Of a DNA stretch of 57,537 nt, positions 10,755 to 43,783 are shown piece by piece. Numbering within the stretch: the first letter of the stretch is position 1; each line of letters opens with the position of its first letter. The DNA comes from Patescibacteria group bacterium (GTDB lineage Bacteria > Patescibacteriota > Minisyncoccia > Phycocordibacterales > Phycocordibacteraceae): contig JAUPKX010000016.1 of the NCBI GenBank assembly GCA_030837225.1, forward strand, positions 1-57,537, given 5' to 3'. The position numbers were made by a program, and so were the translations under genes. The notes beneath the pieces were generated by a model. The model was not told the DNA's origin. It saw only the letters and a program-made list of their open reading frames with translations, and did no database searches.

Positions 10755-13649
10755 ATGGCGAAAGAACGGTTCGATCATGTAGCGATTGAGAAGTCCGCCC
10801 AGGAGAAATGGGAGGCGCTTGATATCTACACCACTGATCTAACTGATTCTGAAAAGGAACCGTACTATCTTCTGTTCGAGTTCCCGTATCCTTCGGGAGA
10901 CCTTCATATCGGTCACTGGTTTGCGTTTGCCCTTACGGACATATTCGCGCGCTTCAAGCGTATGCAAGGAAAGAACGTATTGTTCCCAATGGGATTCGAT
11001 TCGTTTGGTCTTCCTGCGGAGAATGCCGCTATTAAGAACGGCGCGGATCCGGCGGTATGGACTAACGCGAACATGGAGCGCATGCGTGCGCAGGTGAAGA
11101 CCATGGGAACCTCGGTTGACTGGTCTAAGGAAGTCGTTACCTCGAGTCCTGAGTACTACAAGTGGACTCAGTGGCTCTTCTCGAAGCTTTATGACCATGG
11201 ACTTGCGTACCGCAAGGAAGCGGCGGTGAAGTGGTGTCCGAAGGATCAGACGGTGCTCGCCAACGAGCAGGTAATAGACGGGAAGTGTGAGCGCTGCGAC
11301 TCTGAAGTAGAGGAGAAGTTCCTAACACAGTGGTTCATGGGTATTACGAAGTACGCAGAACGTCTCCTCACGGATCTTGATCCGCTTCCATGGCGCGAAG
11401 AGATGAAAGATGCGCAGCGCGCATGGATAGGAAAGTCAGAGGGCGCAAAGCTTACCTTCCCTATCCTTTTTGCTGACGAAGCGAAGAACGAGTGGCGAGA
11501 CGAGGAAGGAAACCCGGCACAGGTAGCTGTGTTCACAACCAGACCAGATACGGTCTTCGGTGCTACCTATGTAGTGCTCGCACCCGAGCATCCGTGGGTA
11601 ACAGGGGCGCTTGAGCACGGTACTGACGTATTTTCAAACGAGAAAGAGGTTCGTGCGTATATACAGGAGACCGCAAAGAAGACTGAGCGAGAGCGACTTG
11701 AGAACAAGGAGAAGACTGGTGTGAAGCTTGAGGGTATTCGTGCCGTTAATCCAGCCACAAAAGGAGAAGTCCCGGTCTATATCGCTGACTACGTACTCGC
11801 CTCATACGGAACAGGTGCGGTTATGGCGGTTCCCGCTCATGACGAGCGTGATTTTGATTTCGCACAGAAGTTTAAACTTCCAATCCGGCATGTTATTGAG
11901 CCAAAGTTTGTGGCGGATGGAGATCAAGCACCAATATCAGGACAGGATTTTGAACGTCGAGAATCAGCGTGCATCGTAGTCTATAACCCAAAGGATAAGA
12001 CTTATCTATGTAACAACTGGAAAACTGCTCTCATGCGTGGTTTGTTTACTGGCGGAATAGATGAAAACGAGGATGTTGTTGAGGCAGCTAGACGAGAGAT
12101 CTTGGAGGAAACCGGCTATACAAATTTGCGTCATATTGAACGTCCTGAGTTGCACGTAAACACATTCTTCTTCCATCGCATGAAGGGTGTAAATCGTTGG
12201 TCTCACTTTACGTTTGTATTTTTTGAGCTTGAGAATGAGGATTGCCTACCTGTAACGGACGAAGAATCAGCGCTTCACGAAATAGTGTGGAAGTCTGCAG
12301 AGGAGTTAGACGATTTCTTTACTGTTCCTGAAGGATGGTTTATAGCTAAGCACCTCGATGCTGCAGAGTACTGTTATTCGTACGACGGCCTTCTAATGAA
12401 TTCTGGTCAGTTCGATGGCAAAGACAACCGTGAAGCCATGAGCGAGATCATCGACTTCGTGGGTGGCGAGCACGTAACGAACTATCGCCTTCGCGACTGG
12501 CTCGTCTCTCGCCAGCGGTACTGGGGCTGCCCAATCCCTGTTGTGTACGACCCTGAAGGTGCACTGCACCTCATCCCGTCCGAGCATCTCCCGTGGACTC
12601 TCCCAACAGACGTCGACTTCTCGCTGTCCTCTGAGTCTCCACTCGCAACCTCAAAGGAACTTAAGGAGCGCGTTGAGCGTATTTTTGGCGAGGGATGGAC
12701 TCCTGAGTACGATACGCTCGATACCTTCGTTGATTCTTCATGGTATTTCCTTCGGTATCTCGACTCAAAGGACGAGAATGATTTCTCAGACCAGTCACTA
12801 TTAAAGAAGTGGCTACCGGTTAATCGGTATTCGGGAGGCAGCGAGCACACAACCATGCACCTCTTGTATTCGCGCTTCTTCCATAAGGCGCTCTACGATC
12901 TTGCTCTGGTGCCTACACCGGAGCCATTCAACGAGCGTTTTAATCGCGGACTCATACTTGGCACCGACGGACAGAAAATGAGTAAGCGCTGGGGCAATGT
13001 TGTTAATCCGGACGAGGTCGTTGCAAAATTTGGTTCAGACGCGGTGCGTATGTATCTCGCGTTCATCGGTCCATACAACGAGCCAGGAAGTTATCCGTGG
13101 AAGCTTGATGGCGCAGTTGCAATGCGCAAGTTCCTCGATCGCGTGTACCAGCTGTCAGAAAAGGTATCAGAGGGCGAGCTGTCAGAGAACGAGCGAACGT
13201 CGCTCGCGAAGGCCGCGAAGAAGATAACGGGCGATACAGAGCGCTTCAAGTTCAATACTGCTATCTCAGGACACATGGTCTTCGTTCGTGAGCTCGAGAG
13301 TGCTGAGACTGTATCGAAAGAGGTATACCTCGCACTCCTAACGCTTATGGCTCCATTTGCCCCGCACCTTGCCGAGCATCTCTGGGAGCGGATGGGGGGC
13401 GAGGGTAGCGTACATACGGCCTCGTGGCCGGAGGAGATCGCAGTTGAGGAAGACACGGTTGTTATAGGGGTGCAGGTAAACGGGAAAAGGAGGGGAGAGA
13501 TTGTCCTGGCCCCAGATGCCTCAGAAGAGGAGGCAATGGAGGCTGCAAAGGCTAACGAGACCATAGGTCGCCTTCTTCATGAAGGAAAGGTGGAGAAAGT
13601 GGTCTATGTACCAGGCCGTATTCTGAACCTGGTGATAACACGAAGTTGA
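10755..13649 (+). CDS. leuS: Leucyl-tRNA synthetase with inserted NUDIX domain
   Basis: 964 residues; E. coli LeuRS has 860. The class I signatures are HIGH at 51-54 and KMSKR at 741-745. The CP1 editing domain carries YGTGAVMAVPAHDERD (around residues 352-367). Between PIRHVIEP and GLLMNSGQFDG (545 onward) lies an extra ~140 residues (about 400-540) with a complete Nudix box: G433, E439, R447-E448, E451-E452, G454. The insert is visibly more AT-rich than the flanking leuS sequence. The enzyme charges tRNA-Leu; the insert may hydrolyse a nucleotide or be structural. Confidence 0.95.
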   Translation: MAKERFDHVAIEKSAQEKWEALDIYTTDLTDSEKEPYYLLFEFPYPSGDLHIGHWFAFALTDIFARFKRMQGKNVLFPMGFDSFGLPAENAAIKNGADPAVWTNANMERMRAQVKTMGTSVDWSKEVVTSSPEYYKWTQWLFSKLYDHGLAYRKEAAVKWCPKDQTVLANEQVIDGKCERCDSEVEEKFLTQWFMGITKYAERLLTDLDPLPWREEMKDAQRAWIGKSEGAKLTFPILFADEAKNEWRDEEGNPAQVAVFTTRPDTVFGATYVVLAPEHPWVTGALEHGTDVFSNEKEVRAYIQETAKKTERERLENKEKTGVKLEGIRAVNPATKGEVPVYIADYVLASYGTGAVMAVPAHDERDFDFAQKFKLPIRHVIEPKFVADGDQAPISGQDFERRESACIVVYNPKDKTYLCNNWKTALMRGLFTGGIDENEDVVEAARREILEETGYTNLRHIERPELHVNTFFFHRMKGVNRWSHFTFVFFELENEDCLPVTDEESALHEIVWKSAEELDDFFTVPEGWFIAKHLDAAEYCYSYDGLLMNSGQFDGKDNREAMSEIIDFVGGEHVTNYRLRDWLVSRQRYWGCPIPVVYDPEGALHLIPSEHLPWTLPTDVDFSLSSESPLATSKELKERVERIFGEGWTPEYDTLDTFVDSSWYFLRYLDSKDENDFSDQSLLKKWLPVNRYSGGSEHTTMHLLYSRFFHKALYDLALVPTPEPFNERFNRGLILGTDGQKMSKRWGNVVNPDEVVAKFGSDAVRMYLAFIGPYNEPGSYPWKLDGAVAMRKFLDRVYQLSEKVSEGELSENERTSLAKAAKKITGDTERFKFNTAISGHMVFVRELESAETVSKEVYLALLTLMAPFAPHLAEHLWERMGGEGSVHTASWPEEIAVEEDTVVIGVQVNGKRRGEIVLAPDASEEEAMEAAKANETIGRLLHEGKVEKVVYVPGRILNLVITRS

Positions 13650-43270: not shown

Positions 43271-43783
43271 ATGAAAAACCTCGTCACCATTAATCTCGAG
43301 AACGTTCCTAGCGACGTCGCTGCGACATTCAAGACCCGGACAGCAGCTCGTGCGGTAATCCTCGATAGCGAAGGAAATATCGCCATGCTCGCCGTCACAA
43401 AGGACGGGTATCATAAGCTTCCAGGGGGAGGTGTCGATGAAGGAGAAGACCTATCTACCGCACTTGCTCGGGAATGCATGGAAGAGGTCGGCTGCGAGAT
43501 ACGGGTGCTCGAAGAGATAGGGACAGTACTGGAGATACGAAAGAATTTCTGTCTCGTACAGGATTCACATGCATGGTTAGCAAAACTCGAAGGCGAGAAG
43601 GGCACACCTGATTTCACCGAGTCGGAACTGAGCCGCGGCTTCGAAATCCGCTGGATGCCGATCACAGAAGCGAAGAGGCTCCTGAACGAAGAGCGCTCTG
43701 ACGATTACGAAAGCCAGTACATCGTCATACGAGACCTCGCTATCCTTGAGGAGGCGGAGCGGCTTATTACAGGAAGGAATTAA
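43271..43783 (+). CDS. NUDIX hydrolase
   Basis: 170 residues from ATG 43271. The Nudix box is complete: GGVDEGEDLSTALARECMEE followed by VG, giving G, E, RE, EE and G in the right spacing. Start KTRTAARAVILDSEGNIAML fits the first strands. Members cleave nucleoside diphosphates linked to other groups. The substrate is unknown; the tail ESQYIVIRDLAILEEAERLI is helical. Probably co-transcribed with the ABC exporter. It is clearly different in sequence from the NUDIX insert in LeuRS. Confidence 0.92.
   Translation: MKNLVTINLENVPSDVAATFKTRTAARAVILDSEGNIAMLAVTKDGYHKLPGGGVDEGEDLSTALARECMEEVGCEIRVLEEIGTVLEIRKNFCLVQDSHAWLAKLEGEKGTPDFTESELSRGFEIRWMPITEAKRLLNEERSDDYESQYIVIRDLAILEEAERLITGRN

Follow-up and report, generated by a model that had tools for sequence, protein, structure and literature searches.

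The question raised by this locus is why an enzyme as constrained as a leucyl-tRNA synthetase (LeuRS) carries a Nudix domain inside its own editing domain, and what that domain might do there. Few proteins are more conserved than synthetases, and the Patescibacteria form one of the largest bacterial groups. The window analysed here is a stretch of 57,537 nucleotides from a member of this group, and its leuS gene was the subject of a sequence-only reading that we followed up by profile searches, structure prediction and comparison with LeuRS genes from other genomes.

The insert in the LeuRS of the window

The window protein is a bacterial LeuRS by its equivalog score (872 bits against TIGR00396, the NCBIfam leuS_bact model, with a cut-off of 548), and its CP1 editing residues are intact. 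The gene is single copy, being the only leuS of the window and the sole full-length LeuRS match in a 667-kb, 98% complete genome. The top full-length solved-structure matches of the whole protein are LeuRS, and AlphaFold models it with a pLDDT of 91.0 and a pTM of 0.81. The Pfam match to the LeuRS editing domain (PF13603) is split into two stretches, the best of which covers aa 222-384, and the NUDIX match lies inside this split domain, as the sequence-only reading had proposed. When the insert is set against uninserted relatives such as LeuRS L033 (VISGGNDELYTGTGTLM), it begins just past VIEP and has the limits given in Table 1; the span of 11940-12390 assigned earlier was thus essentially right, although slightly shifted. 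The Nudix box, earlier described as complete, indeed matches the consensus GX5EX7REUXEEXGU, with Y rather than an aliphatic residue at the final position.

Table 1. Coordinates of leuS and of features within it, numbered along the window
Feature	Position	Strand	Evidence
leuS, bacterial leucyl-tRNA synthetase, 964 aa	10755..13649	+	uninterrupted ORF, TIGR00396
CP1 editing motif TTRPDT (T261, T262, T266), intact	11535..11552	+	sequence, conservation
CP1 editing motif HDERD with conserved aspartate D366, intact	11841..11852	+	sequence
Inserted Nudix domain and linkers, ~156 aa; flanked in CP1 by VIEP and the CYSYDGLLMNSG segment	~11904..12371	+	comparison with uninserted LeuRS; fold
Pfam NUDIX (PF00293) match, aa 401-518	11955..12308	+	47.3 bits, cut-off 21.1, E 2.7e-12
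Complete Nudix box GGIDENEDVVEAARREILEETGY; predicted metal-binding E448, E451, E452	12051..12119	+	sequence, conservation
K477, near-invariant (139/144), candidate phosphate-binding residue (role inferred)	12183..12185	+	conservation
E504, post-box glutamate (120 E + 15 D of 144), candidate for a further catalytic residue (inferred role)	12264..12266	+	conservation

The insert is also more AT-rich than the flanking leuS sequence, as had been claimed: its G+C content is 0.438 against 0.528 in the remaining gene (GC3 0.40 against 0.58), a value below that of every same-length stretch of the remaining leuS (mean 0.530, sd 0.013, minimum 0.501). A gene-model or assembly artefact can be ruled out, as 141 independent LeuRS each show an open frame. 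A second NUDIX domain of the window (43334-43693, + strand; PF00293, 56.2 bits) belongs to a separate frame of 180 aa.

The insert is confidently predicted to adopt the Nudix alpha/beta/alpha fold (pLDDT 93.1 and pTM 0.87 for the Nudix domain alone). The best solved match of the predicted domain is 2azw, with a Z score of 17.7 over 144 residues at 2.4 A rmsd, followed by a tie at Z 13.4-14.9 among MutT1, Rv2985, NudI, Ap6A/Ap4A hydrolases and RppH. The ApnA-type enzymes among these neighbours are the Ap6A hydrolase Ndx1, CT771, and the human and C. elegans Ap4A hydrolases. In a profile search, the top match was a plant-pathogen Nudix effector.

Conservation, distribution and exchange of the insert

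The insertion of a Nudix domain into LeuRS recurs far beyond chance. Homologous inserts were found in 141 distinct LeuRS from Patescibacteria, some Bacilli and Clostridia, and one archaeon, nearly always at the site used in the window and in a few cases at a second CP1 site. In samples that include many metagenome-assembled genomes (MAGs), searched with a profile built from LeuRS inserts, the insert is present at the same site in 23 of 60 genomes of the family, all of one genus, and in about 45 of 286 genomes of the class, and 52 of 380 genomes of the phylum match the insert profile (E<=1e-20). Forty-seven of these 52 phylum matches were read and are LeuRS, one lies in an unread frame of 960 aa, one is an isoleucyl-tRNA synthetase (IleRS), one a valyl-tRNA synthetase (ValRS), and two are frames other than LeuRS. 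Outside the phylum, the insert is rare in Bacilli (9/247), and the single match in Clostridia (1/196) is a free-standing form. A scan of named genomes with a narrow alignment of the insert (A2) recovered the same architecture in Kaiserbacteria, Taylorbacteria, Magasanikbacteria, Moranbacteria, Berkelbacteria and Saccharibacteria, in Bacilli and Clostridia MAGs, and in one Pacearchaeota MAG. A scan of IMG/VR for viral carriers of the insert returned only distant Nudix proteins outside LeuRS. One Bacilli MAG (G688) holds two LeuRS genes that are 46-53% identical, one of 940 aa bearing a Nudix insert and the other of 815 aa lacking it (contigs C24 and C5, the latter as L168), which may reflect either a duplicate gene or binning contamination.

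The catalytic residues are retained in nearly every case where the domain occurs in LeuRS. Across 144 LeuRS Nudix domains, the box glycine is kept in all 144 and the three metal-binding glutamates in 144, 142 and 143, the same pattern as in free-standing Nudix enzymes, and W512 is kept in 143. A degenerate Nudix can be ruled out by these counts, which come from a search profile built from box-bearing members that may hide degenerate inserts. A fold unable to bind metal, the outcome that the sequence-only reading had named as counting against it, is not what we find: the fold is predicted with confidence, and the glutamates that bind metal are present and conserved. In the nine pairs for which it could be computed, dN/dS of the insert is 0.05-0.30, similar to that of the LeuRS core. 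Given the kept catalytic glutamates and the low dN/dS, the insert is very probably an active hydrolase.

The editing site is likewise untouched. The aspartate equivalent to D366 is kept in 134 of 134 inserted LeuRS, and the editing-site threonines and aspartate are equally conserved with or without the insert. Since the editing residues are intact, the insert would add to CP1 editing and not replace it, and replacement can be ruled out as an explanation.

Insert and host, judged by their sequences, have different histories, and the insert moves independently of the host gene. The LeuRS core nearest to that of the window (L019) is 77% identical to it, whereas the two inserts share only 26%; conversely, the nearest Nudix insert (L010, 59%) sits in a core that is only 48% identical. 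Among 300 LeuRS pairs with a core identity above 65%, the inserts are less than 40% identical in 154. Together with the AT-richness of the insert, these discordant identities bear out the earlier suggestion of a separate origin. Presence or absence of the insert varies among close relatives while the editing residues remain unchanged, and the main-site Nudix requires at least 41 state changes (gains or losses) on a 197-row FastTree tree of LeuRS. In 101 pairs with unusually similar inserts, identity is also raised in the adjoining CP1 columns, returning to background some 35-70 columns away on the downstream side and farther out on the upstream side, a signal that is inflated if the columns abutting the insert are linker and not CP1. 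Recombination within leuS would be the simplest route of spread. In a Nudix tree of 146 columns, which is weakly resolved, the inserts of L126 and L127 fall among stand-alone proteins, which suggests a separate entry at the same site. The guest domain appears to be replaced far faster than its essential host.

The domain also exists apart from the synthetase. Three proteins of about 280-300 aa from Bacilli and Clostridia MAGs (L159:3198-4028, L161 ORF +3194 and L162:3150-4049) consist of a LeuRS CP1 remnant and an intact Nudix domain. They retain a complete Nudix box but a decayed TTRPDT motif; PF13603 is still detected in L159 and L162. One free-standing pair gives a dN/dS of 0.11 over its Nudix portion and of 0.27 over its CP1 portion. 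The decay of the CP1 motif beside a kept Nudix box points to a hydrolase whose value is independent of aminoacylation or editing. The L162 gene lies directly after a gene of the Ham1 family.

Nudix is not the only guest of LeuRS. When 207 LeuRS were mapped on a profile of uninserted LeuRS, insertions recurred at profile positions 367 (the site of the window), 242 (before the editing core), 434, 510 and 638. Nudix accounts for 137 of 143 long inserts at position 367, a share raised artificially by the retrieval of most loci with the Nudix search, and for 7 of 21 inserts at position 242, where one LeuRS has two. The few non-Nudix inserts at the main site are other domains and not decayed Nudix. 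The other guests seen in Patescibacteria LeuRS, confirmed by Pfam for one representative of each type and assigned by eye for the remainder, include serine hydrolase (L052, L059, L073, L098, L099, L110, L134, L149, L150), Ham1 (L053, L054, L274), HAD (L031, L095, L096), ASCH (L142, L146) and nucleotidyltransferase domains (L095, L264). An insert of about 120 aa (SYLMGA...MTPGFWNEYI...) recurs at the main site in L265 and L269 and at the second site in L108; the L265 copy has no Pfam match. Several synthetases carry Nudix domains in other arrangements: a LeuRS of 1735 aa from a Taylorbacteria MAG has three (L136 ORF +743), another LeuRS has one at each of the two CP1 sites (L094 ORF +1476), an IleRS of 1544 aa contains Ser_hydrolase, NUDIX and His_Phos_1 domains (L100 ORF +2640, genome G599), and a ValRS of 883 aa has a NUDIX domain inserted after WNISRQLWYGHRIPVWYC (L102 ORF +970, genome G490).

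Possible functions of the nested Nudix domain

We favor, with a probability of roughly 0.62, the explanation that the insert is a Nudix phosphohydrolase complete in itself and competent for catalysis, with LeuRS serving as its chassis, and that it is kept for its hydrolase activity and exchanged between leuS genes. The glutamates of the Nudix box would most likely bind a divalent metal, and the domain would most likely cleave a phosphoanhydride bond in a small nucleoside polyphosphate or a comparable nucleotide (of the NTP, ApnA or 5' RNA-end type). It would work alongside aminoacylation and CP1 editing while substituting for neither, and selection would maintain it for its hydrolase activity. 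Spread between the leuS genes of different lineages would have occurred mainly by recombination of the CP1 region, and the domain would occasionally have moved to the second CP1 site or have entered or left stand-alone genes. The autonomy of the domain is supported by the occurrence of the same Nudix family at the second LeuRS site, in two or three copies within a single LeuRS, in one IleRS and one ValRS, and outside synthetases. The main fact that a pure chassis model leaves unexplained is why LeuRS is so strongly preferred to IleRS and ValRS as a host.

Comparison with known enzymes predicts the substrate only weakly. Matches to the curated Nudix equivalog models all fall far below their cut-offs, with none coming near; for RppH, the score is 27.9 bits against an NCBIfam equivalog cut-off of 116. 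Hydrolysis of Ap4A, which the sequence-only reading had raised, is compatible with the structural neighbours and is possible, but MutT1, NudI and RppH tie with the Ap6A/Ap4A hydrolases in nearness to the predicted fold, so that no single substrate is picked out. A specific link to Leu-AMP, which that reading had also named, or to editing is unsupported, the editing residues being intact with or without the insert and the same Nudix family occurring in settings other than this CP1 site. Compensation for absent stand-alone Nudix genes is also unsupported. Genomes with the insert encode on average 5.2 other Nudix genes and those without it 4.4 (p 0.07), and since there is no deficit, the insert would not replace a missing enzyme.

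It is possible, although we consider it doubtful, that the insert is coupled to the chemistry of its host, either by removing the by-product Ap4A or other ApnN, or by sensing leucine charging through the destruction of a signalling nucleotide near its source. Synthetases are a main source of Ap4A, a nucleotide that Nudix hydrolases degrade, but the text of the review that describes this names no leucyl-tRNA synthetase as a producer (PMC10148737). The presence of Ndx1, CT771 and the human and C. elegans Ap4A hydrolases among the structural neighbours would suit such a role, a point weakened by the equal nearness of MutT1, NudI and RppH. Host preference provides a further argument, as the synthetases that carry the domain in the phylum sample are 47 LeuRS against one IleRS and one ValRS, a count biased by a profile built from LeuRS; in a generic NUDIX search of 60 genomes, among the matches listed, the frames longer than 900 aa coincide with leuS. 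Against coupling, the domain is also found free of any synthetase as well as in IleRS and ValRS, and we infer that a tight link to LeuRS chemistry is absent.

It is improbable that the Nudix fold is a non-catalytic module, an add-on to CP1 with a structural or tRNA-binding role in tuning editing. The location within the editing domain would fit such a role, as would the example of human LeuRS, in which the CP1 insertion I4ae supplies Lys464 to the editing site (PMC7229842). However, the metal-binding glutamates are near-invariant, and closely related LeuRS differ in whether they have the insert but not in their editing residues.

A protective role, in which the insert degrades nucleotide-type LeuRS inhibitors or Trojan-horse antibiotics, seems slightly less probable again. 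Natural leucyl-adenylate mimics that target LeuRS exist, as with the toxic moiety of agrocin 84 (3zgz) and the self-immune agnB2 LeuRS (5ah5). The frequent horizontal swapping of different inserts at one site is what an arms race would lead one to expect. To our knowledge, no Nudix enzyme cleaves inhibitors of the leucyl-adenylate-mimic type, which counts against protection. Least likely of all is hitch-hiking, in which insertion-tolerant CP1 loops would catch small enzymes by illegitimate recombination and the location itself would bring little benefit. Serine hydrolase, Ham1, HAD, ASCH and nucleotidyltransferase domains do occupy a few recurring LeuRS sites, and one IleRS carries three enzyme domains together. 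Against hitch-hiking, purifying selection acts on the Nudix insert, and the main site is dominated by a single Nudix family, whose share there is inflated by Nudix-based fetching.

Beyond the self-contained hydrolase that we favor, a broader and tentative proposal is that patescibacterial LeuRS is a modular platform whose CP1 surface takes up, at certain sites, exchangeable and catalytically active enzymes that process nucleotides, among them Nudix, Ham1, HAD and serine hydrolase. These would be moved between species by recombination and would have a functional tie to aminoacylation; they might, for instance, destroy ApnN or damaged nucleotides where the synthetase acts, or defend it against adenylate-mimic inhibitors.

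Relation to known systems

In a large share of some Patescibacteria lineages, the editing domain of LeuRS hosts a second, apparently active enzyme. The nested Nudix domain can serve as a natural experiment in domain insertion, as a marker of recombination in uncultured bacteria, and as a testable candidate link between aminoacylation and nucleotide hydrolysis. A literature search for LeuRS together with the NUDIX domain or Patescibacteria found no earlier description, in a coverage that mostly excludes subscription journals and preprints, where an earlier report is possible.

With known Nudix hydrolases (PF00293), such as 2azw, the MutT/nudix protein of Enterococcus faecalis, T. thermophilus Ndx1, MutT1 and RppH, the LeuRS insert has in common the fold, the complete box and the metal-binding glutamates. 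Unlike the free-standing enzymes, it is nested in an essential synthetase; it fits no curated functional subfamily and has its own conserved pattern of K477 and W422. Other synthetases are likewise covalently joined to housekeeping-type enzymes, namely the Mycoplasma penetrans methionyl-tRNA synthetase (MetRS), with its N-terminal nucleotidyltransferase-like and aminotransferase domains (PMC13215547), and the NCBIfam class NF040702, an IleRS with an N-acetyltransferase domain. The M. penetrans MetRS is a terminal fusion, whereas the LeuRS Nudix interrupts the editing domain itself, recurs in more than 100 species and is exchanged between lineages. The CP1 insertions I1ae-I4ae of eukaryotic and archaeal LeuRS, described as peripheral (PMC7229842), similarly place extra sequence on the CP1 surface, but they are not recognised enzymes. 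Finally, in a 2026 survey of domain insertions, the family of the LeuRS editing domain appears only as an insert and in none of 213 events as a host (PMC13114784), whereas in the LeuRS described here the editing domain acts as the host.
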